IMG/VR virus record: IMGVR_UViG_3300042882_000899
Location: 50,961-114,960 of that record
DNA length: 64,000 nucleotides
Strand: one strand, 5' to 3'
Source: a virus
Of the stretch, positions 4,228 to 55,673 are shown piece by piece (position 1 is the stretch's first letter; the number at the start of each line of letters is the position of its first letter). The translations under genes and the position numbers were made by a program. Under the pieces are notes generated by a model. The model was not told the origin of the DNA. It did not search any database and saw nothing but the letters and a program-made list of their open reading frames with translations.

Positions 4228-5010
4228 ATGATAAATATTGATCAAGATATACTTTACTTAAACAATAAACTTCTTTCTAATGATAGATTTGAAAAAATTC
4301 ACGATGAAATATACATATGCAAAAAATTTTTATCTGAAGAAGAGTGCTATATTCTAGTTGAGGATGCAAAAAAAGATATTGGTGCTCAAGGTAAACAATA
4401 TACAAGCAACCTTTTGATTAATTATAAGGACAGGCTTTTGAGCTTGATTGATTTTGAGAGTCAAGGCAATATAAAAGAGAGCAATATAAACGGTGGCTGG
4501 GATAAGCTTGTCTTACGATCAGATGGTGATTCCGATAAATTCCACATAGACATATATAATTATTTAAACAAGTATATGGAATCATCACAGATACAGTTTG
4601 ATGAAAGACTTGAAAAAATTAATACTTCATTCATGTCATTTGTGATTTACTTTTCAGAAGACTTTGATGGTGGAAGTATATCTTACCCAGAATACAACTT
4701 TAAGTACAAGCCATCTATTGGAGATATGATATTGCATAATGTTCAAATTGTTCACGGTGTTGAGCCAGTTACAAGCGGCGAGAGATGGTCGTATCAAGGA
4801 TCTATAGATATGGTTAAATATATTGAAAAAGATTTATTTACTAAGTTTATCGTTGACAATGAATATTTTCAAAATAGACATGACGCTTTAAAGATGCCTA
4901 AAGAGCCAGACCATAAGATGAAGGACGATATGTTTTTTTATAGAGAAGATCAGTCCCCTCTTTTAAACAAAAGATTACTTAAGTATGTTACTCAGGAGCC
5001 ATATCTTTAA
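4228..5010 (+). CDS. 2OG-Fe(II) oxygenase (prolyl-hydroxylase-like) 1
   Basis: A 260-residue member of the 2-oxoglutarate and iron-dependent dioxygenase superfamily. A probable HxD is H106-I-D108; the core strand IYFSEDFDGGSISYPEY and VHGVEPVTSGERW supply the distal His176 and Arg186, which bind iron and 2-oxoglutarate. It would hydroxylate a protein or small substrate in the cytoplasm. The iron-site assignment is less certain than in its paralogues, because the spacing from HxD to the core strand is longer. It converges with, and overlaps by 23 bp, the oxygenase on the opposite strand. Confidence 0.8.
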   Translation: MINIDQDILYLNNKLLSNDRFEKIHDEIYICKKFLSEEECYILVEDAKKDIGAQGKQYTSNLLINYKDRLLSLIDFESQGNIKESNINGGWDKLVLRSDGDSDKFHIDIYNYLNKYMESSQIQFDERLEKINTSFMSFVIYFSEDFDGGSISYPEYNFKYKPSIGDMILHNVQIVHGVEPVTSGERWSYQGSIDMVKYIEKDLFTKFIVDNEYFQNRHDALKMPKEPDHKMKDDMFFYREDQSPLLNKRLLKYVTQEPYL

Positions 5011-5824
5011 AGAATTCAGCTGCAAGTTCTTTGCCTTTTAGTCCAGATTCTTGCATAGCTTTAATTTTTTCTTTAGTAAACTGAGGATTTTGTATTAAAG
5101 GCTTCATCCATTCAAGTTCATATCTTTCTGATTTGTCTCCGATTTGATTGTAGTACTCATCAGTTTTGTAATTATAAAATGTTCCTGGATTATCTTCTGC
5201 TCTTAAAACAAAGTTTGAGTATGCGTATCTTGTTCCTGATGTAACTTCTCTAACACCGTGTGCATAATCAGCAAAAGCTCCATGTATTACAACATCTCCT
5301 TCTTCTGGCTGATATTCTAGGCATGGTCCGTCAAAATTAGTTGTTTTCTTTGTGCCATCTGGATTAAAGTTTGGATAAAATACAGCACCGCCTTCAAATT
5401 TTCCAAAATACCCAACTAGGCCATAATCAATTATGCAGCATGTTTGAAAAACATCTGGCTGCGATAGAAGGTGGCATGAGTGCTTTCCTGGAGAATCTGA
5501 GTGGATAAACATTCCTCCATCGCCAGGCTTAACTTTTAAAAAGTTTCTAGATGGATGGATTACGTATTCTGGATATATAAGTTCTGATATATACTCCCAG
5601 ATATCTATAATTCCACCGATAGGATTAGTAGTTTTTTCAGCATACCAATCAATTAATGTTTCTTCGTATTGAGTTGTCATCTGAGATTCTTTTTCCAGCT
5701 GTTCTCTAACTGACTCTAATATACTTTCTGGTATTATTTTTTTAAAAACAAAAACTCCTGTTTTTGTACCATATTCATCGATTGTTGAAACAATAGTTTC
5801 ACACTCTGGTTTATCGTAAAACAT
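4988..5824 (-). CDS. 2OG-Fe(II) oxygenase 2
   Basis: A 278-residue double-stranded beta-helix dioxygenase. Iron ligands are H108-S-D110 (MFIHSDSPG) and H189 (YAHGVREVTSGTRY), with R199 for 2-oxoglutarate; the FEGGAVFYPNF strand is typical of the prolyl 4-hydroxylase branch. It is the second gene of a minus-strand pair, with its ATG overlapping the stop of the 44-residue gene upstream (TAATG). Along its length it differs from the neighbouring plus-strand copy, so it is an old paralogue or a separate acquisition. Substrate unknown. Confidence 0.88.
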   Translation of the reverse strand: MFYDKPECETIVSTIDEYGTKTGVFVFKKIIPESILESVREQLEKESQMTTQYEETLIDWYAEKTTNPIGGIIDIWEYISELIYPEYVIHPSRNFLKVKPGDGGMFIHSDSPGKHSCHLLSQPDVFQTCCIIDYGLVGYFGKFEGGAVFYPNFNPDGTKKTTNFDGPCLEYQPEEGDVVIHGAFADYAHGVREVTSGTRYAYSNFVLRAEDNPGTFYNYKTDEYYNQIGDKSERYELEWMKPLIQNPQFTKEKIKAMQESGLKGKELAAEFFKDMAPE

Positions 5825-5984: not shown

Positions 5985-6006
5985 AAAACCCCATTTCTGG
6001 GGTTTT
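5985..6006 (-). terminator. intrinsic terminator
   Basis: The stem AAAACCCC/GGGGTTTT has a 6-nt loop and, on the minus strand, is followed by a run of T. It ends the minus-strand block that begins with the lysozyme-like gene. Confidence 0.85.
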
Positions 6007-6010
6007 CTTA

Positions 6011-6796: not shown

Positions 6797-6808
6797 ATTA
6801 ACCCCTTT

Positions 6809-14991: not shown

Positions 14992-17895
14992 ATGGCAACA
15001 GTAAGATTGCAGTTAAGAAGAGGCACAGCTTCACAATGGACCTCAGCAAATCCAATTTTGGCAGCAGGAGAGCTTGGAGTTGAGTCAGATACTAACCTCT
15101 TTAAGTTTGGTAACGGTTCAACAACTTGGACAGCTCTAGCTTATGCAAATAACTCAGATGTAGCGATTGGTGAAATCTCCCAAGACGCAATTAATAATGC
15201 CCTATCTATGGGCGCAGGTCTTTCAAAGACGTATGATGACGGCGCAAATACAATTACAATTACAGTAGATTCAACAATTGCAACAAAAACATACGCAGAT
15301 GATGCTGTTACAGCACATCAAAATGATACAACATCTGTACACGGAATAACTAACACAGAAGATATTGTGTACTTGACAGGCGCTCAAACCCTTAGCGGAA
15401 AAACACTTTCTAACGTTGTATTGAGTGGAACACCTACAGCTCCTACTCAAGCTGCAAACGATAACTCTACTAAAATTGCAACAACAGAATATGTGCAAAC
15501 AGAGCTTGCTGATCTTATAGGCACAGCCCCAGCTTTGCTAGATACACTTGGCGAATTGTCAGACGCACTTAACGATAATGAAAACTATGCAGCAGCAATG
15601 ACATCAACAATCACAGGTATCAACAACAGCTTGGCAACTAAATTACCTACAACAGATTTTACCGCACACCTTACTGATACAACAGATGTCCATGGAATTT
15701 CAGACACAGCAAATCTAGTTTATACATCTGACTCAAGACTTTCAGATAACAGAACTCCAGTAAATGGATCTGTAGTAGCAGCATCAATGGCAACAGATTC
15801 AATAACAACACAAAGCATTACAGATGCCGCCGTAACAGGACAAAAAATTGCAGACGATGCAGTAACTGCAGCTAAAATTGCTGCTTCAGCAGTTGGAACT
15901 TCAGAGATTGCAGACGATGCAGTAACTGCAGATAAGATTGCCACAGGGTCAGTTGGTTCTTCAGAGATTGCATCAAATGCTGTCGGTTCAGACCACATTG
16001 CAGCATCTGCAGTTGGAACTTCAGAGATTGCAGACGATGCAGTAACTGCAGATAAAATTGCTGCCTCAGCAGTTGGAACTTCAGAGATTGCAGATTATGC
16101 AGTAACTGCAACTAAGATTGCCACAGGGTCAGTTGGTTCTTCAGAGATTGCATCAAATGCTGTCGGTTCAGACCACATTGCAGCATCTGCAGTTGGAACT
16201 TCAGAGATTGCAGACCTAAATATTACAACAGCAAAGATTAACGATTCAGCAGTTACAGAAGGCAAAATTGCAGGACTGGCAGTTACAGAAGGCAAAATTG
16301 CAGATGGCTCAGTATCTACTGTTAAAATTGCAGATTCTGCAGTAACTTCAGGGAAAATTGCAAACGGAACAATTGTTGATGCAGACATAAATGCAACAGC
16401 AGCAATTGCAATAACAAAAATTGACGGGCTTGGAACATCACTTGATTCTAAGTTAGCTTCATCAACTGCAGCTTCAACATACGCTCCAATTGCTAGCCCA
16501 ACATTTACTGGAACAGTTTCTGGTGTTACTAAATCTCACGTAGGTCTTGGAAATGTTGATAACACAGCAGATGCAGATAAGCCAGTTTCAACAGCTACAC
16601 AAACTGCACTTGATCTAAAGTCACCACTTGCTTCACCAACATTTACGGGTACTGTAACAACAGGACATGTTCTACCAGCAACAGACATTACATTTGACTT
16701 AGGCTCCCCTACTAAAATGTGGAGAGATATTTATGTCGGACCAGGATCCCTGTACGTTAACGGACAAAAAGTTCTTCAAACTGACGCAGGTGACGTTGTC
16801 ATTACTGCCGACGCTAATGAAAACTTGGCATTAAGAACTAGCGGAAGTGGTAACATTGAACTAGATCCAACAGGTGCTGGTACTGTAAGTATAAAAGGAC
16901 CAATGGTTATTGAGGCATCAGCTAACATAACAAGCGCAGATGGCAACGGAATTAACTTTGGAAGCACAGTTAATGTTGATGCCATTACAAGCAAAACCTT
17001 AAATACAGACTTATCGCTATCAGGAAATGGTACAGGAAAAGTTTACCTTAATGATAACGCAGAAGTAAATGGAAACCTTGTTGTTGGTGGAAACCTAACA
17101 GTAAGCGGAACAACTACAACTGTTAACAGCGAAACAATTTCTTTAGCTGACAACATTATTGACTTAAACAGCAACTTTACTACTGGAACTCCAACAGAGA
17201 ATGCAGGAATAAAAATTAAGCGTGGAGATTCTTCTGATGTTCAAATACGTTGGAATGAATCTACTGATAAGTGGGAGTTTACAAATGACGGAACAAACTA
17301 TTATTCAGTAGCAGGTCTTGAATCACCAACATTTACAGGTACTGTATCTGGTGTTACAAAGACAATGGTAGGTCTTGGAAATGTTGATAACACAGCAGAC
17401 ACAGCCAAGCCAGTTTCAACAGCTACACAAACTGCACTTGATGCAAAACTTGCTTCTGCAACAGCAGCAACAACTTATGCGCCAATTGCTTCACCAACTT
17501 TTACTGGAACAGTAACAGTTGCTGCAGCAGGAGTGGCATTTACAGATAAGACACAGACAAAGGCTGGCGTACCATCACTTACAACAATTGGAACAACTGT
17601 TTCGTCAAACACTACACTTGATCTACTTGGAACAGACGCAGCAGTTCGGGATTCATTAATTCCACTGTCTGGTGCAGTAAATATTAACTTTGAAGCAACA
17701 GGAAATGCAAAGTATTCAATCGGCTCTTCAATAAGCTTCTATCAGTCTTCAAGTACTGGTGCAAATATAACTGGAACTGGTGGAATAACAGTTCTTTCAA
17801 CTCCAGGCGCAACATTAAGAGCACTAAATTCATCAGTAACAGCAACAAAAATTGCAGCTACAACCTGGTTGTTAGCTGGAGACTTGAAGGCATAA
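14992..17895 (+). CDS. large tail-fibre protein with pentad repeats
   Basis: A 967-residue fibre. The N-terminus MATVRLQLRRGTASQWTSAN...ELGVESDTNLFKFGNGSTTW is the fibre start motif seen in many phages. Residues about 270-470 are repeats of the form AVGTSEIADDAVTADKIA, a right-handed repetitive structure with I-A steps every 7-8 residues. Two segments repeat SPTFTGTVSGVTK-hVGLGNVDNTAD, also typical of long fibres. The C-terminus is a beta domain (ITGTGGITVLSTPGATLRAL). It probably forms the main receptor-binding fibre with its neighbours. Confidence 0.8.
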   Translation: MATVRLQLRRGTASQWTSANPILAAGELGVESDTNLFKFGNGSTTWTALAYANNSDVAIGEISQDAINNALSMGAGLSKTYDDGANTITITVDSTIATKTYADDAVTAHQNDTTSVHGITNTEDIVYLTGAQTLSGKTLSNVVLSGTPTAPTQAANDNSTKIATTEYVQTELADLIGTAPALLDTLGELSDALNDNENYAAAMTSTITGINNSLATKLPTTDFTAHLTDTTDVHGISDTANLVYTSDSRLSDNRTPVNGSVVAASMATDSITTQSITDAAVTGQKIADDAVTAAKIAASAVGTSEIADDAVTADKIATGSVGSSEIASNAVGSDHIAASAVGTSEIADDAVTADKIAASAVGTSEIADYAVTATKIATGSVGSSEIASNAVGSDHIAASAVGTSEIADLNITTAKINDSAVTEGKIAGLAVTEGKIADGSVSTVKIADSAVTSGKIANGTIVDADINATAAIAITKIDGLGTSLDSKLASSTAASTYAPIASPTFTGTVSGVTKSHVGLGNVDNTADADKPVSTATQTALDLKSPLASPTFTGTVTTGHVLPATDITFDLGSPTKMWRDIYVGPGSLYVNGQKVLQTDAGDVVITADANENLALRTSGSGNIELDPTGAGTVSIKGPMVIEASANITSADGNGINFGSTVNVDAITSKTLNTDLSLSGNGTGKVYLNDNAEVNGNLVVGGNLTVSGTTTTVNSETISLADNIIDLNSNFTTGTPTENAGIKIKRGDSSDVQIRWNESTDKWEFTNDGTNYYSVAGLESPTFTGTVSGVTKTMVGLGNVDNTADTAKPVSTATQTALDAKLASATAATTYAPIASPTFTGTVTVAAAGVAFTDKTQTKAGVPSLTTIGTTVSSNTTLDLLGTDAAVRDSLIPLSGAVNINFEATGNAKYSIGSSISFYQSSSTGANITGTGGITVLSTPGATLRALNSSVTATKIAATTWLLAGDLKA
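15892..16251 (+). repeat. 60-bp repeats and 180-bp tandem duplication in fibre gene
   Basis: The segment from GCAGTTGGAACTTCAGAGAT at 15892 recurs at 16012 and 16072 and 16192. A 180-bp block (15892-16071) is nearly identical to the block starting at 16072. This suggests recent expansion by unequal exchange or slippage. Confidence 0.8.
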
Positions 17896-17917: not shown

Positions 17918-18814
17918 ATGTCAAAAAATATAGGAAGAAGATCTTCCGCACAAGATAACTTTATTGGACCAAATCCAGTAACAAATGTTACAGCATCAGA
18001 CTACTTAAATGGAGCTAATAACCAAAGAGCTTTTAATGATGGTGCAATTAGCGTTTCATGGTCAGCTCCAGTAGGAGGTAATACTCCTACTGGCTACAAG
18101 GTATATGAAGCTGGTGTTCTAAAAGCAACAGTCCCATTTGGAACAAACACAGCTTTGATAACTGGGTTAGGTTCAAATACATCTCACACATATTCAGTTT
18201 CATCTTATGACTCCTATTTAGACAATTCATCAAATGCAGTTGCGGCAAATGCAGCAACTGCTACAACAGTTCCAGGCACACCAGCCAACCCAACAGCAAC
18301 AGCTGGTGTTGATTTAGACACAATTGCGTGGGTTGTTCCAGCAAATGGTGGAAAAGTCATTATCGATATTTATATTGAATCGAATGAGCCAACGCCAAAA
18401 AATAAAACTGTTACAACAGATGCCAATGGAAGCACAACTATTGCAAATGAAGCAAATACAGCACAGGCCTACAAGGTAAGAGCAAGAAATGCTAACGGTT
18501 CAGGAGCCTTTTCAGGATTCTCTAATACTGTTACTACTCAAGCACCTTCATTCTTTAGCCCACCGTTCTTCCCACCTGGCTTCTTTAGCCCACCGTTCTT
18601 CCCACCTGGCTTCTTTAGCCCACCGTTCTTCCCACCTGGCTTCTTTAGCCCACCGTTCTTCCCACCAGTATTCTTTAGCCCACCATTCTTTCCACCTGGC
18701 TTCTTTAGCCCACCGTTCTTCCCACCTGGCTTCTTTAGCCCACCGTTCTTCCCACCTGGCTTCTTTAGCCCACCAGGATTTGGTGGCGGAGGCTGGAACT
18801 TGAGAGCTTACTAA
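17918..18814 (+). CDS. FN3-domain fibre protein with proline-rich decapeptide tail
   Basis: A 298-residue protein. Residues about 45-110 and 120-205 are fibronectin type III-like (ISVSWSAPVGGNTPTGYKVY; IAWVVPANGGKVIIDIYIES). From residue 212 the chain becomes FFSPPFFPPG repeated seven times (one copy ends in V), plus a partial copy, then GFGGGGWNLRAY. The tract is about 40 percent proline and 40 percent phenylalanine, probably a rigid hydrophobic polyproline rod. A 134-residue gene and then five prolyl-hydroxylase-like genes follow directly. Confidence 0.75.
   Translation: MSKNIGRRSSAQDNFIGPNPVTNVTASDYLNGANNQRAFNDGAISVSWSAPVGGNTPTGYKVYEAGVLKATVPFGTNTALITGLGSNTSHTYSVSSYDSYLDNSSNAVAANAATATTVPGTPANPTATAGVDLDTIAWVVPANGGKVIIDIYIESNEPTPKNKTVTTDANGSTTIANEANTAQAYKVRARNANGSGAFSGFSNTVTTQAPSFFSPPFFPPGFFSPPFFPPGFFSPPFFPPGFFSPPFFPPVFFSPPFFPPGFFSPPFFPPGFFSPPFFPPGFFSPPGFGGGGWNLRAY
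18551..18775 (+). repeat. 30-bp tandem repeat, 7.5 copies
   Basis: Seven 30-bp copies encoding FFSPPFFPPG lie at 18551-18760, with a 15-bp partial copy after. Copy 4 ends in GTA instead of GGC (Gly to Val), and copy 5 has two third-position changes; the others are identical at the DNA level. Confidence 0.9.
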
Positions 18815-18844: not shown

Positions 18845-19249
18845 ATGAGTAAAAATTATGCAATCTTGTCTTTAGGTAAAGTTATTGATAAGATAGAAGT
18901 AGAAAACGTAGAAGAAGATGCAAATAGAGTAGACAGATTTTCTGAAATATTCAACTCTAATTTCTTCTGCAAGGATATAACTGATCACAAGAAAGTAAAG
19001 CTAAACTCAATATGGGATGGCCAAGCATTTTCTGAATCGGATGAGGAAAGAAAAGAGGTTGCACCATATTCAGTAGCCTTTGTTTCTGACAATATAATCA
19101 AAGCAGTTGTTAGAGTGTATACAGCAAAAAGGTATAACCTCTATAAAGAAGCAGAGGTCAATGGGGTTTCTGCAATTGATGTTACCGACATGGATGTTAC
19201 AGCTATAAAAACTGGAATGTCATGGGACGGTACCTCTTTTACAGAATAG
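18845..19249 (+). CDS. hypothetical virion-associated protein
   Basis: A 134-residue protein (MSKNYAILSLGKVIDKIEVE) with two segments of the type IWDGQAF and SWDGTSF; a similar WDGESF ends the 78-residue protein at 55733. Such W-D-G-x-x-F ends are common in small phage tail proteins. It sits between the proline-rich fibre and the oxygenase cluster, so it could be a partner of either. No catalytic motif is visible. Confidence 0.6.
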   Translation: MSKNYAILSLGKVIDKIEVENVEEDANRVDRFSEIFNSNFFCKDITDHKKVKLNSIWDGQAFSESDEERKEVAPYSVAFVSDNIIKAVVRVYTAKRYNLYKEAEVNGVSAIDVTDMDVTAIKTGMSWDGTSFTE

Positions 19250-19261: not shown

Positions 19262-19957
19262 TTGAGTAAAGATATTTTAAAGCATGAAATATCTCCTGGT
19301 CTATGGGTTTATAAAAATCAAATAGATAAAAGCATTATTGATGACGTCGAAGGCTTTTTGTCTCAGTACGAAGAAGACTTTGAGTGGCGTGAAGCTACTG
19401 TTGGATATGATGTAAAAGTTCCTTCGTATAGAGACTGCGTAGATTTTAAAATACAAAAACATGAAATGCCAAATATGCCAAAAAGCAGAAAAGATCTAAA
19501 TGATATTTGGCAAAAAGCATACGATATGCAAATTGATGCTGTTAAAGATTACTGCAAGGTTTACAATATTGACATGCAGTATTGGGAAGCCATGAACTTT
19601 ATTAAGTATGGCGAAGGCCAGCATTTCCAAGAGCACTCAGATCATGGATTCTCATACATAGCAACAGTTTCATTAGTGTCTTATCCAAATGATAACTACG
19701 AAGGCGGGGAGCTATATTTCCCTAAACTTAACTTAACAATAACTCCAGAGGCTGGAGATATTGTTATATTCCCATCAACATATTTATTCTCACACAGAGC
19801 AATGCCAGTTAAATCAGGAGTCAAGTATTCAATCGTAACAATGCTGGACTATAATGATAATACACATAACCAAGAGTTTGATATTCTTAGAATGAAAAGG
19901 ACTAATTCTGCTTCTGCAAGAGAAAGTGCAAAAAGTGGAAATAATAAAAGCCTATAA
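19262..19957 (+). CDS. 2OG-Fe(II) oxygenase 3 (prolyl-hydroxylase-like)
   Basis: A 231-residue dioxygenase with iron ligands H125-S-D127 (QEHSDHGF) and H178, core strand NDNYEGGELYFPKL, and PVKSGVKYS where K188 replaces the usual Arg/Lys that binds 2-oxoglutarate. It is the first of five related genes. The TTG start follows AGGAAG and is 12 bp after the preceding stop. The branch is that of prolyl and lysyl hydroxylases; substrate unknown, but proline-rich fibre DNA lies 500 bp upstream. Confidence 0.88.
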   Translation: MSKDILKHEISPGLWVYKNQIDKSIIDDVEGFLSQYEEDFEWREATVGYDVKVPSYRDCVDFKIQKHEMPNMPKSRKDLNDIWQKAYDMQIDAVKDYCKVYNIDMQYWEAMNFIKYGEGQHFQEHSDHGFSYIATVSLVSYPNDNYEGGELYFPKLNLTITPEAGDIVIFPSTYLFSHRAMPVKSGVKYSIVTMLDYNDNTHNQEFDILRMKRTNSASARESAKSGNNKSL

Positions 19958-20651
19958 AACTAAAGAAGGATATTCTGAGCTAAACACACTGCCAGTAAAA
20001 AGAGACTGGATGGATGCAACTTGGCAAAAGCATGCCTACCATTGTTTCCCAGTAACTTTAACAAATACAATGGGGTGGTACTTAAGTTTTCCAGAAGATA
20101 TAACATTTATTTGGGACGGAGTTTCAAATTTTGATCCTTCTCATGTAAAGATATTATCTGGAGAAAAGTATGCGTATTCTGGTAGAGCAAATGGAACAAT
20201 AAGCTTTAATACAGGCATAAAGTTTAAAACTGAAAAAGATGTAACTCTATTAACTATGCCAGCACCTAATTTTTTTATTGATGGTGCTTCATGTTTTACA
20301 ACATTAATTAGCACATCATTTTTTAGAGCTGACTTGCCAGTAGCATGGATGATTACTTCTCCTAATAAAAAAATTACTATTCCTGCAGGCCACCCCATAT
20401 GCTCAATAATTCCAGTAAAATTAAATGATCTTAATAATTCTGAGATTAGAATTGAAAAAGAGCCAGAGGATGAAGTAGTTTCTCAAAAAGAGTTATACGA
20501 ATATTCTATGGCAATTAATGAGATAAATAAAAAATTTAGTTGGTCTGATTTTTACAGAAATGGGATTGACCACAAAGGCAACGATCTTGGCCAACATGAT
20601 GTAAAGTCTTTAAAGCTAAAAGTCATACAGGAATCTCCTGGTGATATTTAA
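19926..20651 (+). CDS. DUF6065-like protein
   Basis: A protein of about 240 residues with KRDWMDATWQKHAYHCFPVTLTNTMGWYLSFP, then AYSGRANGTISFNTG and PVAWMITSPNKKITIPAGHPICSIIP. This arrangement matches my memory of the DUF6065 family, found in phages and bacteria near oxygenase genes, with no established activity. The GTG at 19926 overlaps the previous gene by 32 bp; GTG 19935 is an alternative with better ribosome spacing. Being embedded in the oxygenase cluster suggests a shared pathway. Confidence 0.6.
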   Translation: MQKVEIIKAYKTKEGYSELNTLPVKRDWMDATWQKHAYHCFPVTLTNTMGWYLSFPEDITFIWDGVSNFDPSHVKILSGEKYAYSGRANGTISFNTGIKFKTEKDVTLLTMPAPNFFIDGASCFTTLISTSFFRADLPVAWMITSPNKKITIPAGHPICSIIPVKLNDLNNSEIRIEKEPEDEVVSQKELYEYSMAINEINKKFSWSDFYRNGIDHKGNDLGQHDVKSLKLKVIQESPGDI

Positions 20652-20660
20652 TATGAAATA

Positions 20661-20669
20661 TGGTATATT
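20661..20669 (+). promoter_or_regulatory. extended -10 TGGTATATT, leaderless type
   Basis: The hexamer ends 6 nt before the ATG at 20676. No clear -35. It would allow the second half of the oxygenase cluster to be transcribed separately. Confidence 0.55.
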
Positions 20670-20675
20670 ATAGAT

Positions 20676-21422
20676 ATGGAAATAGTTAATAAAGGAATTA
20701 TGGGCGGAGGAAGAGCCCCTATATCAATAACGCCATCTGGATTCTTTGGCGACTCAATTGATAATATTGTTGAGCTGGAAAATTTTATAACGGAAGAAGA
20801 GCAGCAGAGACTTATTAATTTTGCACTAACTAATAAAATCTGGGATAAAACTGAGACTCATGTCGATGAAGACGGTCTCGTCCTTTATGACGCAAATATT
20901 TGGGAAGATAGAGTTTGCACTGCAGACTCATTAAAAAGATCTGACCCAGGAATAATTGATTTGTTATGGGATATGATTGATAGACTAAAAGTAGAAGTTG
21001 ATAAATTTTTTGATGTTAATGTTCAAGCCACTGGGCCAGCAATTGTTAGGTGGCCAGTTGGAGCAAGACAAGAACCTCACGCAGACAAAGAGTTTCATAC
21101 TGGAGAAGAAGAAGGAAGACCAAATGATTTTCCTTATTATGACATAGCTGGACTATTTTATTTTGACGATAATTATGAAGGTGGAGAGCTATATTTTCCA
21201 AGACATGGTATTGAATTTAAGCCAAAGCCTAGGGCAGCTTATTTTTTCCCAGGAGATAAATATTATGCTCATGGCGTTAGACCAGTAAAGTCTGGAAATA
21301 GATTCACTGCCCCATTTTTTTGGACGATTGTAAAGCATACTGGAGAAAAACAACCTCCGCAAGATTATTCAGATCAGTTTAAGTCGCCATCATGGCAAAA
21401 GCTTTATGGAGATAGGGGTTAA
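20676..21422 (+). CDS. 2OG-Fe(II) oxygenase 4
   Basis: A 248-residue dioxygenase with H135-A-D137 (EPHADKEF), core strand FDDNYEGGELYFPRH, distal H199 and R209 (YAHGVRPVKSGNRFT). The N-terminal 110 residues are an alpha/beta extension (SIDNIVELENFITEEEQQRL), as in many phage members. It appears leaderless. Intact ligands indicate a working enzyme. The next gene starts 4 bp after its stop. Confidence 0.88.
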   Translation: MEIVNKGIMGGGRAPISITPSGFFGDSIDNIVELENFITEEEQQRLINFALTNKIWDKTETHVDEDGLVLYDANIWEDRVCTADSLKRSDPGIIDLLWDMIDRLKVEVDKFFDVNVQATGPAIVRWPVGARQEPHADKEFHTGEEEGRPNDFPYYDIAGLFYFDDNYEGGELYFPRHGIEFKPKPRAAYFFPGDKYYAHGVRPVKSGNRFTAPFFWTIVKHTGEKQPPQDYSDQFKSPSWQKLYGDRG

Positions 21423-21425
21423 AAA

Positions 21426-22271
21426 ATGCATAGTTTAAATATAGTTGACGATATAGATTCTTTAGACTGGACAGAGTTGCTTCCAGGTGTAATACTTTAT
21501 AGAGGAATGTTAAAGGATCCAGACCTCGCATATAATATAATGATGCGCTCAGAATCTTCAGAAGAAAGTAATTTTTTTCAACAATGGACACCATGGGCTC
21601 AATACGGAACTTACACACAGGCTAAAGAACAGCCTATGATTGAGTTAGCAGAAAAAAATGAAATTTTTAATGAAGAAAAAGCACTATATGAAGAAATTGC
21701 AAATTCTTACGATAAGGCAATATCGCATTATTTTAAACATACTGGAATTGAAATTCCAGAAGGCGCAAGGTATAGCGGACAGTCTTGGTGTAAGTATTTC
21801 AACTTGATTGACACATTAAAAAATAAAATGACAATGCAGTATCATACTGATTTTATTATTTCTCAAAAAGATATGCCTGGGGAAAAATTCCATACAACCT
21901 GCACTTTTTATATTAATGACAACTATAATGGTGGCGATATAGAGTTTTTTGTAGACGGTAAGTTTGTAAACCATAAACCATCTGCTGGAGACCTGCTAGT
22001 ATTCCCATCAGGAGAACCTTTTTATCATGGGGTAAAAACAATACCAGATGGCAATAAGTTCTTTATCAGAAACTTTGTAATGTTTGATTATGATGGCTCT
22101 AAAGAGTGGCTAGCAAATCAAAAGAGATATGGCGCATATAAGTGGGCAAAGCAAGAAATTGAAAGAATTGCAAATGACGATCCAAGAAATATGATCTATA
22201 TAAGAGATAACGAAGTTATATCTTATGAAGAAATTATGGACATAAAGATTGACGGGGGAATATACAATTGA
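21426..22271 (+). CDS. 2OG-Fe(II) oxygenase 5
   Basis: A 281-residue dioxygenase with H140-T-D142 (QYHTDFII), core strand INDNYNGGDIEFFVDGK, distal H201 and K211 (YHGVKTIPDGNKFF). It has a longer N-terminal domain than its neighbours, and the basic cofactor residue is Lys, as in prolyl 4-hydroxylases. It ends in a TTGA overlap with the next start, so translation is coupled. Confidence 0.88.
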   Translation: MHSLNIVDDIDSLDWTELLPGVILYRGMLKDPDLAYNIMMRSESSEESNFFQQWTPWAQYGTYTQAKEQPMIELAEKNEIFNEEKALYEEIANSYDKAISHYFKHTGIEIPEGARYSGQSWCKYFNLIDTLKNKMTMQYHTDFIISQKDMPGEKFHTTCTFYINDNYNGGDIEFFVDGKFVNHKPSAGDLLVFPSGEPFYHGVKTIPDGNKFFIRNFVMFDYDGSKEWLANQKRYGAYKWAKQEIERIANDDPRNMIYIRDNEVISYEEIMDIKIDGGIYN

Positions 22272-23047
22272 ACCTAATTAAAGTTAGAGACAATGAGCAC
22301 CCAGTATATTTATACGAAGAGTTTTTGACTAAAGAGGAGTGCGCTGGAATTATTAAGATGTTTAATAATCTTATAGCCAGCGGAGATTTTGAATGGCACC
22401 CAATCTCTTTTTATGAGTCATATGCTTATAACATGCCTAACCAGTTAACAGATGACAAGAATAAGCTATCTCAATGGTATGCAGATGCTGGTCTGCCAGA
22501 CAATTTCCTGGACGATCTAGAGGAAAAGTTTAAAAATGCAGCTCGTGAAATCATAGGGGGGGAAGCATATAAAATAAGTTTTCATAGTCAAAAATGGATA
22601 CCTGGAGCTTATGCAGCTTTTCATTCAGATAACAGCTATGACGGTAAGCCAAGCGCATTTGAAAGAAGTAGATACGCAGGATTCCTTTATTTAAACGATG
22701 ACTTTGACGGCGGTGAGCTTAATTTTAAAAACTTTGATTTGAGCGTTAAGCCAAAAACAGGAATGTTTGCTATTTTTGATGGAGGTCATGAGAATACCCA
22801 TGAGGTTACTCCAGTATTTAAAAGCGACAGATACACTGTCGGATCATTCTGGGATGATCGGTCAGAGGAAGATTACCCACAAGAAACTAGAGACAGATGG
22901 GCAGAAGAAATTGAAGAGACTAGAAAAAAGCAAAAAGTAGAGCAAGAAGAGTGGAAAGAAATACGAGATAGCGGAAAAAGAAGAACACCAGATGGCAGAG
23001 AATACGATGCAGTCTTAGCAGAAAGCGGAGAAGTCGATGGAGATTAA
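22268..23047 (+). CDS. 2OG-Fe(II) oxygenase 6
   Basis: A 259-residue dioxygenase with H119-S-D121 (AAFHSDNS), core strand LNDDFDGGELNFKNF, distal H178 and R188 (THEVTPVFKSDRYT). The last 60 residues are a charged helix (EEIEETRKKQKVEQEEWKEI) not seen in the other copies, possibly a coiled-coil contact. TTG start overlapping the previous stop by 4 bp; its end overlaps the next gene by 11 bp. Confidence 0.88.
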   Translation: MNLIKVRDNEHPVYLYEEFLTKEECAGIIKMFNNLIASGDFEWHPISFYESYAYNMPNQLTDDKNKLSQWYADAGLPDNFLDDLEEKFKNAAREIIGGEAYKISFHSQKWIPGAYAAFHSDNSYDGKPSAFERSRYAGFLYLNDDFDGGELNFKNFDLSVKPKTGMFAIFDGGHENTHEVTPVFKSDRYTVGSFWDDRSEEDYPQETRDRWAEEIEETRKKQKVEQEEWKEIRDSGKRRTPDGREYDAVLAESGEVDGD

Positions 23048-23729
23048 AGAAGTTCAACCAAGATCAATGTACACAATGTTTGATATTGTTTACCACGATA
23101 GAGGGATTGTGTATTTTGAAAATGTTATTAGCTATCCTCAAAAGCTTTTAGATACGATTGAAGATCTTGATGCAAATCCAAAATCTCATGCTGGAATACC
23201 TAAATGGAATGCTTGGGGAGCAAGCAACGATGAAAAATATGGTTATGGAATTCAAAAGTTTATAGACACATCAAAAAGGTATTTGAACTCGGATGACGAT
23301 TTTCTAAACAAGCAAGTACTTTATGTTGTAAACAGCTTAATTATGGCACCAGAAATGTGTGCAAAAAGATATGCCGAAATTATGCGTAGAGATGCATCTA
23401 ATATTCAAAAGATAGACAGTACGCCAGAACAGGTTAAAATGGGGCTAGACTATATTAAGGTAGCAAAGTACGATACAGGCAAGGGGATGGGGCCACACTG
23501 CGATGCAGAAGATCCATCTGGTACTGGCGAAAATCTGAAGTACTCCCTTGTTTGCTACCTTAATGATGACTACGAAGGTGGAGAAATTTACTTTAAAAAC
23601 CAAGATATTAAGATTAAGCCAAAGGCTGGAAGCTTGGTATTATTCCCTTCAGTTCACCCGTACCTACATGAATCTTTACCTGTTACAAAAGGTAACAAGA
23701 TTATGTTTACGACTCACTGGATGGTTTAG
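23037..23729 (+). CDS. 2OG-Fe(II) oxygenase 7
   Basis: A 230-residue dioxygenase with H154-C-D156 (GPHCDAED), core strand LNDDYEGGEIYFKNQ, distal H211 and K221 (YLHESLPVTKGNKI). The HCD form and core strand also occur in the separate copy at 55092, so these two may be the closest pair. It is the last of the cluster; a LamG-type tail protein follows under its own promoter. Confidence 0.88.
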   Translation: MEIKEVQPRSMYTMFDIVYHDRGIVYFENVISYPQKLLDTIEDLDANPKSHAGIPKWNAWGASNDEKYGYGIQKFIDTSKRYLNSDDDFLNKQVLYVVNSLIMAPEMCAKRYAEIMRRDASNIQKIDSTPEQVKMGLDYIKVAKYDTGKGMGPHCDAEDPSGTGENLKYSLVCYLNDDYEGGEIYFKNQDIKIKPKAGSLVLFPSVHPYLHESLPVTKGNKIMFTTHWMV

Positions 23730-23768: not shown

Positions 23769-25532
23769 ATGTCATATTACCTTTCTGCCATTAAAGACTT
23801 CCCAATAGGACTATGGAAGTTAGATGAATCATCTGGCTCAGTAGCCTATGATATTTCTGGGTGCGGAAATAATGGATTGTACGTCGGTCAAATATCTAAA
23901 TCTGGCATGCCAATTGTATCTGGTGGCACACACTCTAATAAAATAGATAGTTTAAATTATGTGCAATTCAACCTGTCAAAAGATTTTTCTGGAACTATTG
24001 GCACAGGAGGATTTGCAACAGATTCAACATACGATAATGACTTTACATTAGAAGCATGGATACACCCCAAAACATTAACTGCACTAACTCCAATACTGGC
24101 AGACTCTAGTGGCATAGGATTATATTGGGATAAAGGAAATGCTGTATTTAAATTAGAAAATGAACGAATTGATTATTCAGTAATAAACCCAAACAGAGTT
24201 ATTCACCTTGTTGGAATATATTCAGTTAACTCAATGAGCTTATATGTTGATGGCGCTTTGGTAGCATCCAAACCTGTATCTATTAAGTTTACAAATACTA
24301 GCGTAACATTATCTTCTGGGCCATGTGCATCTGGAGAGCATTTTATAATTGATTGTCCAGCCGTATACAGATATTCGTTGTCGGAAAGATCAATCCTTTC
24401 GCATTATAATAATTTATTTCTTAATAATGACGAGCAAGTTTCTGTTCCAGAGTTAGGAGAATTATTTAGGGCGGGAGAAAGATATCAAAGCGTAGAAACA
24501 AAATATGTATACCCAGCTCAAGTTTCGTGGGACACTCTTATATATGACAATGAAAATCTTTCTTACAACAAAAATAATAATAGTGTTTATTTAAATTCAG
24601 GATTTACATCTGGTGAATTTATTGAGGATATGGTTCTAAATGTTACTAAAGACTACATGTCGTCAAAAATTGATTGGGTTTCTTCTAATGGCGTATCAAT
24701 ATATGTTTCTGAATCTTCAGAAAATGGACCATGGGTTTTGTGTACAAATGGATCTTCTATCCCAGGATTTACGCAAGGATCTGCTTTTTCTAATTCAAAA
24801 GTTTTATATTTTAAAGTTCTATTTCAGTCCACAAATTCAGATGTATATATCCCAGAACTATACTCATTAAAAATTTATTTCTATTCTGAAAAAAAGATGT
24901 TTGCACATAATGGTGGTGGCTTTCTTGCAACATCACAACCTGCAACAGGATCTATATGGGACATTGACATAGCAAATGAACCTTATCAGGTCAGGCTAAG
25001 AAGTAGCACAAACGGAATAAGACCAAAATCCTCAGCTTTCTTTGTTAACTCTTTAAATGAAAATCGTAATATCGAAATGATATTTACTCCAAAATCTCTA
25101 TCCAGTGGTCACCTAATGTTTAATAAAACGGGATCAGTTGAGACGGCATTATCTTGGGCGGCAGGCGGAGCAATAGCAAAATCTAACATTAGCAATATAT
25201 ATATTAATGGCCAAGATGCCTCATCCGCTACCAACATATCATCATATTTATATATAGATGAGCCTAACTATATATTAATAAAAACCTCTAGTGCTATTAG
25301 TGGAGAAATTTGGTTTAATGGCAAGCAGCTTCTAGGAGTAAGATCAGGCGTATTGGATGATAATTTATACCAAAACTTAGCCTTGTACACAAATCCATCA
25401 ATTAGTCACCAGGAGCATTATGACTTATATATTGGCAAACCTGCTTCTATTGCTGAAGGATCGTCGATGGCAATGACAGAAGAGTCCGTATCCACATATT
25501 CTAGAGACAGAGTAGTGCTTCAAATCATATAG
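23769..25532 (+). CDS. LamG/concanavalin-like tail protein
   Basis: A 587-residue protein. Residues 10-210 form a LamG-type jelly roll: FPIGLWKLDESSGSVAYDIS, NDFTLEAWIHPKTLT and SMSLYVDGALVASKP are its standard strands. A second beta-rich half follows (res. 290-580) with another lectin-like part. Such domains bind sugars, and in phages they decorate tails or capsids. It lies between the oxygenase cluster and the head genes; leaderless start. Confidence 0.75.
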   Translation: MSYYLSAIKDFPIGLWKLDESSGSVAYDISGCGNNGLYVGQISKSGMPIVSGGTHSNKIDSLNYVQFNLSKDFSGTIGTGGFATDSTYDNDFTLEAWIHPKTLTALTPILADSSGIGLYWDKGNAVFKLENERIDYSVINPNRVIHLVGIYSVNSMSLYVDGALVASKPVSIKFTNTSVTLSSGPCASGEHFIIDCPAVYRYSLSERSILSHYNNLFLNNDEQVSVPELGELFRAGERYQSVETKYVYPAQVSWDTLIYDNENLSYNKNNNSVYLNSGFTSGEFIEDMVLNVTKDYMSSKIDWVSSNGVSIYVSESSENGPWVLCTNGSSIPGFTQGSAFSNSKVLYFKVLFQSTNSDVYIPELYSLKIYFYSEKKMFAHNGGGFLATSQPATGSIWDIDIANEPYQVRLRSSTNGIRPKSSAFFVNSLNENRNIEMIFTPKSLSSGHLMFNKTGSVETALSWAAGGAIAKSNISNIYINGQDASSATNISSYLYIDEPNYILIKTSSAISGEIWFNGKQLLGVRSGVLDDNLYQNLALYTNPSISHQEHYDLYIGKPASIAEGSSMAMTEESVSTYSRDRVVLQII

Positions 25533-25595: not shown

Positions 25596-25940
25596 ATGGA
25601 CATAAAAAGAATTAATGCTCAAATGAAATCTGGCGATACCAGGTTAGGAGTCTATGTCTGGGAGATGCCAGATGGAAGATGGGTCGGAGACGAAGACAAC
25701 AACTTCCTATCAATAGCATCAATGATTGGTAATAAAGAAAGAATTGCTCTGTTAGCATCAGCAGTTGCTCACTATGGAATTGATGTCGGCCAGCCTAAGT
25801 TTATTGAAGGAAGCAGGCAGATTGACGATGAAGAATTTGAATATCAAAAGCAAAGACTTAGATGGGGACTCACTCCAGATCCTTTGGATATAAGTGTTCA
25901 CAAAGAAGAAATGGCTAAACTGAATGGTGGTAAAAAATGA
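25596..25940 (+). CDS. hypothetical protein preceding portal
   Basis: A 114-residue protein (MDIKRINAQMKSGDTRLGVYVWEMPDGRWV). Position and a 4-bp overlap with the portal gene suggest a small head-associated role. No motif recognised and no terminase features are present, so the terminase genes must be elsewhere in the genome. Confidence 0.65.
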   Translation: MDIKRINAQMKSGDTRLGVYVWEMPDGRWVGDEDNNFLSIASMIGNKERIALLASAVAHYGIDVGQPKFIEGSRQIDDEEFEYQKQRLRWGLTPDPLDISVHKEEMAKLNGGKK

Positions 25941-27517
25941 TTGAGTACGATGAAGACACTGTTATGAATAACATAGAGGTTTCTAACGTGGCAGACTGGA
26001 TGAGATTTAACAATCCAACTACTCAGAAATCAGATGACGCATTTGATGTAGAGGGCGAAGACATTTTAAAGCTTTCTGGTCTAGGTGCCTCATTTAGAAG
26101 AAAAGTTTCCAGAGATCTTCAGAAATCTTTTGTAGGAAAAGATGGAGCAGTAAGCCAGCAGCTTCAGCATCAGCAAGCAGTTAGTGGCTATGCCACATTT
26201 GATCTAATTCAACCAGAATATAATTTAGATTATTTATCAACAATTTACGAAATTTCTCCATACAACTATGCTGCTATAAATGCAAAGGTGGCAAACATTG
26301 TTGGCCTAGGATTTGATTTTGTTGAATCAAGAAAAACGACTGATGCACTTGATGAAATTAGTGATGAGAAGCAATTAGAAAGAGCCCGAAAGAAGTTAAA
26401 TAGAATTAAACAAGATTTAAACAAGTGGCTTGAAGATTGCAATGAAGACGAAACTTTTAAAGAAACACTTATAAAGTTCTACACTGATATAGAGGCTACT
26501 GGTAATGGCTACCTAGAGGTCGGTAGAACGACAACTGGCAAGATAGGATACATCGGACACATCCCTTCAAAGACAATGCGTGTAAGGCGCCTTAGAGACG
26601 GTTTTATCCAGCTTCTTTATGGCAAGGCTGTTTTCTTTAGAAACTTCGGGGACACAGAAACAGTAAACCCTATAGCAGGTCAAGAAGATAGGCCTAATGA
26701 AATTATTCATTTAAAAAAGTACACGCCAAAGAATAATTATTATGGAATTCCAGATATTATTGCTGCCCAGAATGCTATGGCTGGTAACGAGTTTGCTGGC
26801 AAGTACAACCTGGACTACTTTGAAAACAAGGCAGTGCCTAGATACATTATTACGGTAAAGGGAGCAAAACTTTCTCCAGAATCTGAAAGAAAGCTGCTTG
26901 AGTTTTTCCAGGTGGGACTAAAGGGAAAAAACCACAGATCTCTGTATATACCACTTCCACCAGACTCACCAGACTCAAAGACTGAGTTTAAGATGGAGCC
27001 AATTGAGGCTGGCTCACAAGAGTCTTCATTTAACATTTATCGTCAATCAAATAGAGACGAAATTCTAATGGCACATAGAGTTCCAATTAATAAAATTGGC
27101 ACACCAGCAGGCATTAATTTGGCTGCAGCCAGAGACGCAGATAAGACATTTAAAGAGCAGGTATGTCGTCCAGCTCAGGAAAACCTAGAAAAGAAATTAA
27201 ATAAAATAATTCAAGAAATGACTGATGCCATGGAGCTTAAGTTTAATGAATTAAGCTTGACAGATGCAGACACTCAGTCTAAGATAGATGAAAGATATCT
27301 TAGATTCCAGGTAATTACTCCAAATGAAATTAGAGTAAGAATGGGAATGGTTCCACGAGAAGGTGGGGATGTCCCAGTAGACCTTGCAGCACAGGCAGCC
27401 GAAATTAAGGCTCAGGCTACTCAAAGTAGAACCCGTGACCAAGAAAGATCAGCAAATTCCCCAGATAAATCTGGGGAGGGCAGAAATGCAAAGGGAGATG
27501 GAAGACAAGTCAACTAG
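25937..27517 (+). CDS. portal protein
   Basis: A 526-residue portal of the HK97/PBSX-like class: ISPYNYAAINAKVANIVGLG near residue 120, YYGIPDIIAAQNAMAGNEFA near 270, and PINKIGTPAGINLAAARDAD near 385 are standard segments of the clip, stem and wing domains. A dodecamer at one capsid vertex would guide DNA packaging and join the tail. The C-terminal 30 residues are Gln/Arg-rich. It starts 4 bp inside the preceding gene. Confidence 0.88.
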   Translation: MIEYDEDTVMNNIEVSNVADWMRFNNPTTQKSDDAFDVEGEDILKLSGLGASFRRKVSRDLQKSFVGKDGAVSQQLQHQQAVSGYATFDLIQPEYNLDYLSTIYEISPYNYAAINAKVANIVGLGFDFVESRKTTDALDEISDEKQLERARKKLNRIKQDLNKWLEDCNEDETFKETLIKFYTDIEATGNGYLEVGRTTTGKIGYIGHIPSKTMRVRRLRDGFIQLLYGKAVFFRNFGDTETVNPIAGQEDRPNEIIHLKKYTPKNNYYGIPDIIAAQNAMAGNEFAGKYNLDYFENKAVPRYIITVKGAKLSPESERKLLEFFQVGLKGKNHRSLYIPLPPDSPDSKTEFKMEPIEAGSQESSFNIYRQSNRDEILMAHRVPINKIGTPAGINLAAARDADKTFKEQVCRPAQENLEKKLNKIIQEMTDAMELKFNELSLTDADTQSKIDERYLRFQVITPNEIRVRMGMVPREGGDVPVDLAAQAAEIKAQATQSRTRDQERSANSPDKSGEGRNAKGDGRQVN

Positions 27518-34029: not shown

Positions 34030-34048
34030 TTATATTAATAATTAATAT

Positions 34049-34076
34049 CAAAGCCCCCAAGAAATTGGGGGCTTTG
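34049..34076 (+). terminator. intrinsic terminator after tail tube gene
   Basis: CAAAGCCCCCAA/TTGGGGGCTTTG is a perfect 12-bp stem with a GAAA loop. Its core GCCCCCAA is the same as in the capsid terminator. The following bases are only weakly T-rich. Confidence 0.75.
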
Positions 34077-34099
34077 CTGTTGTACCCGTATAATGGTTA

Positions 34100-34108
34100 T
34101 GCTATAAT
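34100..34108 (+). promoter_or_regulatory. extended -10 TGCTATAAT
   Basis: Same element as at 30031. It precedes the tail chaperone gene, whose leader has AAGGAGG. Confidence 0.6.
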
Positions 34109-34136
34109 AATTTAGACGATCCTTAAGGAGGATAAA

Positions 34137-51381: not shown

Positions 51382-54300
51382 ATGAGCTGGTGGAGAAAGT
51401 CAAATTTAGATGATGCTGGCAATCTTGATGGCTGGATAAAAATAAGAAGCATATGGAGAAAGACTAATATCGGTGATGCTGGCTCAACAGATGGCTGGCT
51501 AAAAATAAAAAGTGCCTGGAGATTTCAAGGGCTAAATGATTTAGGTGCTGGCATATGGTATAAAATTTTTGGATCTGAATCTCCTTATCCAAAAGAAAAC
51601 CCAAAACTTATATTTGTTTCTACGGATTCAAGCACATCTGAAACAGAATGTACTCAGCAAGACAAAATGTATGTTACAAGAGGCAAATGGTATGAAGAAC
51701 CAATATCATTTTTAATTAAAATACAAAAGTCTATAATTACAAATTGGGATGCACCAACAACATTAATTAGCCAAGAGCTTGAGTATTTAGAGTATAAGGA
51801 TTCAGATTATTTAGATGAAGTTCCTAAACTAGTTGCAGATAGACCAACAATAACACTAGATGACATTAAAAATAAAATAGGCTTTAGGGCACAAGTTGCA
51901 GCTGGTCAAGATGCTAATCCAACAGCAGATGACTACCTACTTGCAACCTCATGGTATCCAAGTGCTACAGGAATTTTCCCAAGACTTAATTTTGGGTTTA
52001 CTACATACAGCACTGGTGATCAAATAGTTGAAGATGAAACTCTAAGTATGCCAGAGTTTAAAATATTTGGATTTAAGTGGCAGTATTTAACATCATCTGC
52101 TGCATCATATCCAAATGGACAATACTTCCCGTCATCTAGAACTGATGAGTTTATTGGAAAGCAAATAATAGAGTTAACTGATTTTTATGGAACAAGAATT
52201 GGCGCATTGCAAAACGTAGATGTGTTGCCAAACCATCAGTATTCTGGAACCATATCTTACACCCAAGCTATGATAGATTCCAATGAAGATTACATAATAA
52301 ACGTCTATGCATTTGCAAAAGATTATTATTATAATGCTAGCAATTCTTTAGAGTCCCACTTAAATGATATGAATGAGACTCAAAGGATTGCGTCATATGT
52401 GTTTGTACCACCAAGAGAAATAGAAGACCCAGAAATTACTATATCTAATAGAACAAAAAGTTCTGTGGATATAAATTGGTATTCCCCAGATGCAGAAAGG
52501 TATAAAGTTGAATTAATAGATTCAATTACAGCAGATTCTTTGGGGGGATACCCAAAACTTTCAACTGAAGATGTTTCTGCCAGCCCTTTCGGTTTAACTG
52601 AAAATAGACTATATACTGTTTCAGTAACCGCACTTGCTGGAGAAAATGATAAATACAAAAGCGAGAGAGTCTCTAAAAGTTTTAGAACATTAAAAACTGG
52701 AATAGCCGCAGAGTTAGGAGTTCCTTACGATATAACTTCAACTGGATATAAGGTAAATATAGAAAATTGGAGTACAATAAGTTCATTTGATATAACCGTT
52801 TCCGCAACATTTGGGACAGCGTCAAGGTCTTCTGACGTTATATCTGTTACCAATGTTCCAGCAAATTCTAATTCATGTTTAACTGCTACAACTTCTAAAA
52901 TTGATAATGTAGATTTAACAGCCGTTTCATATGATTTTGCAGAGTCTTCTCCTGTATGTATAGTTATCGGAGGAACTTGGTATTGCTTAAATTTTGTTCC
53001 TGGCGGAGGGTGTTCTAAATCTATAGAACCTTATGACAAAACTTTAAGCGGTTCTGGATTTTCTATTAATTGTTCACAAACAGATCAATGCTGCCCATCT
53101 GTAGTTTTAGAGCCAAAAGTTTACACAGAATGGGTAATTGGATTGTGTACAGTTGCACCCGCAGATCCTCAAAGACCAAGAACTAGAACATGGACTCAGA
53201 TACAAAAAACAACTTCTCAAAATTGCGTTGTTACTAACGTAGAGCTATCTGGATCAGAAACAGAATATATTGATTGTTGTGTTCCAACATCCACACTTGG
53301 GGCTAAGACTTATGGGACACCAAATGATTGGGGTACATGCAATTTAAATACTGGACAAATCGGAAGAACGGTTCCGTGGACAGCAACAAGAACTAATTTT
53401 ACTAGAGACTGTACTACAACTACGACAGAAGAAAGCGGGCTTGAAGTTCAGTATAAAGATTGCTGCACTGCCAGCTCATCTTTAGGAACTAAAACTTATA
53501 GCGACTGGTCTCCATATGGCTCATGTATTCAAGGAGAGAGAGCGAGCTATAGAACTTGGACAGCTATTCAAACAAACAATACAATTAATTGTACTACTAC
53601 AACTAACGAAGTTAATGGAACAGAGTATAGGTACACCTCATGTTGTACTGCTGGCTGCACACTAGGAACAAAAACTTATGGAGATTGGTCTGCTTATGGA
53701 TCATGTGTTCAGGGGGAGAGAAGAAGACAAAGATCCTGGACAGCAATAAATACGTGTATAGATTCAAGCTGCAATATAATTTCTCAAAATGAATTAAATA
53801 GCGTTGAGTATGAGTATACATCATGCTGCGTACAGTCCTGTACTACTGGAGCTAAGACATACGGAGCCTGGACAGCATACGGTAGCTGTATACAAGGTCA
53901 ACGTGCCAGATCAAGAAGCTGGACAGCAACTGAATCATGTTTTACGACAAGTTGCACTAATACAACTGAAACAATTAGCGGTACCGATTTTGAGTATACT
54001 TCATGCTGTGTCCCAAGCAGCACTACTGGCACGAAAACTTACAGTGCTTGGTCTGCATACGGAAACTGTATCCAAGGAGAAAGGGCTCGATATAGAACTT
54101 GGACAGCCATACAAACCAATATTGATTCTAGTTGCAATAGCACAACCACAGAAGTTAACGGAACAGAATATGAGTACACTTCATGTTGTACTGCTGGTTG
54201 TACTACTGGTACAAAAGATTATAGCGCATGGGGATCATGGGGGTCTTGCAGTCAAGGGGAGCAAGCTAGAATTAGAACATGGACTGCGATTGAGACATGT

Positions 54301-55091: not shown

Positions 55092-55673
55092 TTGAAAGTA
55101 GAAGACCTAGGAAATAAAATATTTATGTATAAAGATGTTGTCGGTAGCAGCTTAGACGTCCTTTCCGAGCTTAATAAAATATTTTCTGAATACAATCAAG
55201 ATTATAAGGAATCAACAATGAATAATAAAGATTATGACGATTCACTGCGTTCGTGCACTGTTTTTTCATTGTATGTAGGTTTACAGGATGGTCCTGAATA
55301 CTCTAATGCAAAGAGGGTACTTAATAAAAAAATAGATATAGCGCTATCTAAATGCATACTTCATTTTGTAAAATCAACTGATATTAAAATAAAAGAAAGA
55401 GAGCCGTGGGAAATATTGAGGTACGAGAAAACCCAGAAAGTAACATGGCACTGTGACGACGGAGAAGTTCACCCATCTAAAGTATCTTTTGTTTATTACA
55501 TCAACGACGACTATGAAGGCGGAGAAATTCAATTTAAAGACAAGGCTTATAGTATACCCATAAAGCCAAAAAAAGACAGCTTGATAGTATTCCCATCAAG
55601 CTTAGAATATATTCATAGAGTTTTACCAGTATCAAACGGAGTGAAATATTCAATAATATCATTTGGAAAATAG
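55092..55673 (+). CDS. 2OG-Fe(II) oxygenase 8
   Basis: A compact 193-residue dioxygenase with H120-C-D122 (TWHCDDGE), core strand INDDYEGGEIQFKDK, distal H175 and K185 (YIHRVLPVSNGVKYS). TTG start, with AGGAGA upstream, 11 bp after the Hint-domain tail gene. It is the only oxygenase near the tail tip, and its HCD motif resembles that of copy 7. Its position suggests that it acts on the preceding protein; unproven. Confidence 0.88.
   Translation: MKVEDLGNKIFMYKDVVGSSLDVLSELNKIFSEYNQDYKESTMNNKDYDDSLRSCTVFSLYVGLQDGPEYSNAKRVLNKKIDIALSKCILHFVKSTDIKIKEREPWEILRYEKTQKVTWHCDDGEVHPSKVSFVYYINDDYEGGEIQFKDKAYSIPIKPKKDSLIVFPSSLEYIHRVLPVSNGVKYSIISFGK

Follow-up and report, generated by a model that had tools for sequence, protein, structure and literature searches.

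A cassette of five diverged 2-oxoglutarate (2OG)-Fe(II) oxygenase genes arranged around a DUF6065 gene is near-obligately coupled to an adhesin with aromatic-proline repeats in environmental phages. The cassette analysed here lies at positions 19262-23729 of a 64,000-nt stretch (the window) of IMG/VR virus record IMGVR_UViG_3300042882_000899, the whole of which is 114,960 bp; coordinates are those of the window, and G000 denotes record numbering. The source is a freshwater, probably actinobacterial phage. We think it probable that the six genes form an operon for maturing the phage's own adhesin, whose repeats the enzymes are predicted to hydroxylate. The module is real and conserved, and is apparently undescribed: our literature searches found no paper on phage fibre hydroxylation and none that names DUF6065.

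The cassette and its coupling to a repeat adhesin

Six consecutive open reading frames (ORFs) on the + strand, starting at 19262, 19926, 20676, 21426, 22268 and 23037, overlap or almost abut. ORFs 1 and 3-6 match PF13640 above the Pfam cut-off (9.8e-7 to 6.7e-15), and ORF 2 is the DUF6065 gene. The motif HxD...H...[K/R] is intact in all five cassette oxygenases and likewise in all eight copies in the window. The candidate substrate is encoded two genes upstream of the cassette. It is an Fn3 protein (17918..18814, + strand; PF00041 1.7e-5) whose tail, read from the sequence at 18548..18811 (+), carries seven FFSPPFFPP[G/V] units, i.e. (FFSPPFFPPG)7. A 134-aa gene without Pfam or PHROG match (18845..19249, +) lies between the Fn3 protein and the cassette. 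Cassettes start within ~1 kb of an Fn3 protein with such a tail. Homologues in relatives share this architecture, with FFAPPG, FFPPHFPP or YFPYFPP repeats and often a C-terminal Hint-like domain. The repeat codons vary synonymously, which means that conservation acts on the protein sequence. The Hint-like domains placed after repeats suggest that virion proteins with repeats cleave or ligate themselves.

A strict FFxPP DNA pattern misses variants such as HFPPFFPP and YFPYFPP, and repeat proteins were instead recognised by composition, as the smaller of the Pro and Phe+Tyr counts per 50 residues. Over ~2,500 ORFs this score was bimodal, nearly all lying at 9 or below and the repeat proteins at 15 or above. 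In loci anchored on DUF6065 with at least 3.6 kb upstream, a repeat protein was found in 45/45. A portal-anchored scan, which is independent of the cassette, gave 40 loci with at least 7.5 kb upstream, 18 with at least three oxygenases and 22 without. The repeat protein was present in 16/16 readable cassette loci (four after contig extension; the other two of the 18 end too early) and in 0/22 cassette-free loci; in those of the latter that were examined, different fibre genes occupy the site, many of them glycine-rich. Nine changes in cassette state are required on the portal tree, of which four or more are well supported. When IMG/VR was searched solely for DNA encoding PPxFFxPPxFFxPP, 27 of 28 loci with at least 4 kb downstream held at least three oxygenases and DUF6065, and the exception ends inside its Fn3 gene. 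Those 27 loci represent 22, 17 and 8 DUF6065 clusters at 90, 70 and 60% identity. The apparent exceptions L042 and L267 are cut off at the locus end. Glycine-repeat control loci had any oxygenase in 3/16 cases and DUF6065 in 0/16. The original prediction had proposed surveying how often the cluster accompanies proline or TxN repeats in related phages, and in the DUF6065-anchored and repeat-anchored counts it is chiefly the aromatic-proline (FFxPP) repeats of the Fn3 protein that go with the cluster; TxN repeats concern a separate fibre and the oxygenase at 55092, described below.

The cassette lies among several virion genes. Its upstream neighbour beyond the Fn3 protein is a long tail-fibre/adhesin with an Mtd_N (major tropism determinant N-terminal) domain (14992..17895, +; PF18454 3.2e-13), and its downstream boundary is a LamG/concanavalin-A-like virion protein (23769..25532, +; PF13385 1.1e-12). 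Cassette and glycine-rich fibres are swapped at one site, and cassettes of some relatives add AspH, TauD, sulfotransferase and SDR genes. These features would fit a hitchhiking explanation, in which oxygenases and adhesin form one exchangeable host-range module and the enzymes act on the LamG/Mtd-type fibre, on its glycans or on host surface proteins. We regard this as rather unlikely. Mtd-like and LamG fibre families, including that of the gene at 23769-25532, are also found in cassette-free relatives, whereas the repeat tracks the cassette. A second phage group with other flanking genes (L287, L331) retains only a short repeat protein that adjoins two oxygenases, DUF6065 and a further oxygenase; L289 has a similar set of two oxygenases and DUF6065.

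Nine cassette-bearing records (91-120 kb) have 7-13 PF13640 matches each, compared with none in six portal-sharing IMG/VR records (44-91 kb, without the FFxPP pattern; contigs possibly incomplete) and in phage StarPlatinum. Five of the six (all but G034) were read over the 10 kb before the portal and lack the cassette there. Oxygenase load therefore follows the repeat adhesin and not the phage lineage. The same counts bear on the idea that these are host-directed auxiliary genes, whose products modify host proteins or redirect 2OG/oxygen-dependent metabolism in infection. In PHROG, phrog_61 is classed with auxiliary metabolic or host takeover genes, and a bacterial prolyl 4-hydroxylase (P4H) can act on a translation factor (PDB 5v7y title). 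Such a role is nevertheless quite improbable for a cassette that sits inside a virion gene block, is strictly coupled to a virion repeat protein and has no PF13640 counterpart in the portal-sharing cassette-free records searched.

Upstream of the portal, L150, L162 and L170 have cassette-free fibre modules with phrog_7084-like proteins, and those of L162 and L170 also hold an SDR gene and two oxygenases. These modules are possibly a different modification system.

Orthologous classes and further oxygenases

With the DUF6065 protein as query, an IMG/VR scan recovered 80 loci, many of the shorter ones being contig ends. The gene order in almost all of them is one oxygenase, DUF6065 and then two to six further oxygenases, often overlapping; the DUF6065 slot sometimes holds a second DUF6065 gene or a phrog_7084 paralogue. 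Across ~20 divergent environmental phage cassettes the order of oxygenase A, DUF6065 and oxygenases B, C, D and E is kept, and in a tree of 126 oxygenases the five positions fall into five main clades. Position labels change 33 times on this tree compared with 84.7 times in shuffles, and 0/200 shuffles were as low; most of the remaining label changes are due to insertions, which displace the numbering, and to the cassettes that have diverged furthest. Judged from the tree, each cassette position is a separate orthologous class. Within each class, all 14-16 diverged orthologues keep the catalytic H, D and H.

Class A (19262..19957, +; PF13640 1.6e-13) has a TTG start with GGAAG upstream, the residues H125, D127 and H178, and the 2OG-binding residue K188. 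It is followed by the DUF6065 gene (19926..20651, +; PF19541 4.4e-32) and by class B (20676..21422, +), the slowest-evolving class, with H135, D137, H199 and R209. Class C (21426..22271, +) has H140, D142, H201 and K211. Class D (22268..23047, +; PF13640) has a TTG start with H119, D121, H178 and R188, and class E (23037..23729, +; PF13640) has H154, D156 and H211. The five oxygenases are mutually ~24-41% identical (local identity over the core), and a recent tandem duplication of these five genes was rejected on their five separate clades.

Three further copies lie elsewhere in the window. The first (4228..5010, +; PF13640 4.2e-6, above cut-off) is of P4H type. The second (4988..5824, -) falls below the Pfam threshold and matches PHROG 61 weakly (8.7e-4), but its motif is intact and it is an orthologue of the sixth/seventh cassette oxygenase of L028, L083, L034 and L043 (clade support 99). 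The third (55092..55673, +; PF13640 2.7e-15, above cut-off) lies directly 3' of the fibre with TxN-type repeats. This fibre (51382..55080, +) consists of Fn3, (NTI/NTV)n repeats at ~54370-54590 and a C-terminal Hint-like (intein-like) domain at ~54604-55077, whose Cys directly follows a GGGG linker. The same architecture occurs in L179-L192, the pairing of the fibre with a 55092-type oxygenase is kept in the closest relatives of the oxygenase, and L188 and L190 add FFPYFPYFPP repeats to the fibre.

Outside the window the record has five more oxygenases (G000 3741, 4751, 5817, 10581 and 30915) and a two-domain AspH (aspartyl/asparaginyl beta-hydroxylase) and P4H-like protein at G000 34038-35336 (L497 1249-2547). 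The gene before this fusion looks sulfotransferase-like by eye, with no Pfam match. The trio at G000 3741-6893 forms a tandem array with 32-34% identity over its whole length and groups with class C in the tree. The original prediction was thus right about the six consecutive genes, five of them with complete HxD...H motifs, and about the copies at 4228, 4988 and 55092. Its total of eight oxygenases is correct for the window, whereas the record holds at least 14 such proteins, and its exclusion of recent duplication stands for the five cassette genes but has to be set beside the tandem trio.

Further genes were noticed at other loci. At its cassette, L048 has a sulfotransferase gene (PF03567) paired with AspH. 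In L010 a protein that by eye resembles luciferase-like monooxygenases (2186-2980, no Pfam match) adjoins an oxygenase gene, and a similar gene stands beside the cassette in L034 and L043. L010 also encodes, at 303-1493, a secreted Ala-rich protein with the signal peptide MNSFKKIALAMVAAMTLGTMVATPASA, which recalls host surface proteins. No RNA families were found in the 17.5-26 kb region of the window.

The portal protein (25937..27517, +), used as lineage anchor, is 59% identical to Streptomyces phage portals; across the comparisons the identity to portals of the Stanwilliamsviridae is 58-60%. The genome also encodes a WhiB regulator. Because of this portal resemblance and the presence of WhiB, the host is likely actinobacterial.

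Predicted chemistry and the DUF6065 protein

The class profiles match solved structures of prolyl 4-hydroxylases (3itq, 5hv0 and PBCV-1 5c5t), prolyl 3-hydroxylase 1 (8k0e) and the PKHD enzyme PiuC. Prolyl 3-hydroxylase 1 is the best solved relative of class D (1.7e-8) and the PBCV-1 prolyl 4-hydroxylase that of class E (2.4e-9), while the match of class C to solved prolyl hydroxylases is weak (0.0067). In fold, the class B model (pLDDT 85) comes closest to the viral prolyl hydroxylase of PBCV-1, 5c5t (6.9e-11). In fold alignments with solved prolyl hydroxylases whole-protein identity is under ~20%. The equivalog cut-off of 143 for NF003974 (PRK05467/YbiX/PiuC) was not reached, the best three scores being 31-41 bits; by these scores the cassette oxygenases are relatives, not members, of this PKHD-type hydroxylase family. 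A Pfam scan of the oxygenases gave PF13640 and weak relatives only, and no membership of the TET/JBP or AlkB families. The catalytic cores fit hydroxylation of protein, probably of proline, as the predicted substrate.

The DUF6065 protein scores 111.9 bits against PF19541 (cut-off 26.6). Its AlphaFold2 model (pLDDT 91) has a dUTPase-like beta-clip fold and matches dUTPase 3ecy (TMt 0.76, E 2.8e-4), and its sequence profile gave nothing significant against solved structures. By eye the protein (A1) has a motif-3-like STSFFRGEL, with Ser at the Asp position of dUTPases. It is distantly paralogous to phrog_7084 (hhalign E 2.9e-5, probability 74%). Assignment as a canonical dUTPase was rejected: the dUTPase profile PF00692 has no match in the genome, hhalign against one phage dCTP-deaminase-like protein gave no profile similarity, and the resemblance is in fold only.

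These results also bear on nucleotide or DNA chemistry, in which the oxygenases would modify or repair bases and DUF6065 would be a dUTPase-like nucleotide-binding protein. The model match to 3ecy is in line with this, and a DNA-repair role has been proposed for phage 2OG oxygenases (PMC9146016). Set against it are the negative PF00692 and dCTP-deaminase-like comparisons, the protein hydroxylases that are the nearest solved oxygenases and the fibre genes that make up the genomic context. Nucleotide chemistry is therefore highly improbable.

In the surveyed cases DUF6065 lies within the cassette, after the class A gene and before that of class B. On account of this fixed place, a scaffold or substrate-presenting role is most likely. 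Neither DUF6065 nor a repeat protein was found in the isolate phage collection. In cellular sequences DUF6065 turned up on a single short contig, from a bacterial bin; its fibre and cassette genes are the same, and it is therefore probably phage.

Proposed adhesin maturation and known systems

The original prediction of a dedicated fibre-modification pathway with a DUF6065 partner is supported by comparative genomics: cassette and repeat adhesin come and go together, DUF6065 is inside the cassette, and the solved relatives are prolyl hydroxylases. Hydroxylation itself is predicted. In the maturation operon that we propose, five non-redundant P4H/PKHD-type peptidyl hydroxylases would act on the aromatic-proline tail of the upstream Fn3 protein. 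Most likely they would target more than one proline position and divide positions or chemistries among themselves. We infer that the cassette, which lies in the structural-gene block, is expressed late. The DUF6065 beta-clip protein would most likely be a non-catalytic scaffold or substrate-presenting partner, and the remaining oxygenases, such as the AspH-like fusion and that at 55092 beside the NTI-repeat fibre, may extend the set to other virion repeats. The AspH and sulfotransferase genes added in other cassettes are in line with this proposal. The benefit would be a rigid or adhesive hydroxylated repeat, which is perhaps protease-resistant.

Several points weigh against this proposal. Near-identical contigs inflate the counts, the 45 DUF6065-anchored loci falling into 22, 14 and 5 DUF6065 clusters at 90, 70 and 60% identity, and the tree-corrected comparison of five pairs (4 concordant, 0 discordant, 1 tie; p = 0.125) is underpowered. 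L118 (4800-6849) has DUF6065, one oxygenase and a phrog_7084-like neighbour with no repeat in its 10 kb. Many oxygenases are found where there is no such repeat (L162, L170, cyanophages), and the dependence is therefore one-way. Co-occurrence is also expected if an intact gene set is passed on together as a mobile module. A P4H-type fold does not by itself define the substrate, and the dUTPase-like fold of DUF6065 could hint at nucleotides. PBCV-1 encodes an active viral P4H, yet hydroxyproline was sought in its virions unsuccessfully (PMC7019647).

Among the 'auxiliary' genes of aquatic phages that lack an explanation, 2OG-Fe(II) oxygenases are some of the commonest. A large class of these enzymes is now tied to a specific neighbouring substrate candidate by a near-perfect presence/absence rule, and therefore 'function unknown' becomes testable at the bench with one peptide and five enzymes. 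If our proposal is true, phages make collagen- or extensin-like adhesins that carry hydroxylations, attachment to the host would depend on the supply of oxygen and iron at assembly, and a role is found for DUF6065.

Among known systems, StarPlatinum (Stanwilliamsviridae) has a related portal (58-59%) preceded, as here, by a LamG-position gene. It differs in lacking the adhesin block and cassette between ribonucleotide reductase and portal, and has no PF13640 in its 134 kb. The haloarchaeal virus HF2 and its relatives encode phrog_7084 proteins, distant DUF6065 paralogues that are often the next gene in cassettes, but HF2 and VOLN27B have no annotated oxygenase within 8 kb of them. T4-like cyanophages resemble this phage in having many diverged P4H-type oxygenases per aquatic genome, with PHROG 61 in common. 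S-SZBM1 has nine 2OG-Fe(II) oxygenase copies (PMC9146016), which corrects the earlier statement that phages have single copies. The cyanophage enzymes are described as scattered and without assigned substrate, and the isolate phage collection has no DUF6065 match.

PBCV-1 vCPH (5c5t/5c5u) is a viral enzyme with the same fold and motif as the cassette oxygenases and, as summarised in PMC7019647 (citing Eriksson 1999), turns proline-containing peptides into hydroxyproline-containing ones. Unlike the cassette enzymes it is a small enzyme described alone, from an algal virus, with no DUF6065 partner or coupled repeat adhesin described. Hydroxylation of collagen and extensin (C-P4H, P3H1, algal P4H) likewise uses several 2OG hydroxylases on one proline-rich repeat structural protein. 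Those enzymes are eukaryotic and secretory, with no orthology to the cassette beyond the catalytic core, and the phage repeat is Phe/Tyr-Pro in contrast to Gly-X-Y or Ser-Pro. With some reservation, and at slightly less than even confidence, we suggest a bacterial-virus counterpart of collagen/extensin maturation, spread widely among environmental phages and absent from the isolate collection searched, in which a beta-clip scaffold and five or more specialised hydroxylases would pattern aromatic-proline repeats with hydroxylations, with Hint self-processing in several relatives. The analogy suggests that phages may chemically finish their own attachment proteins, as animals do collagen.

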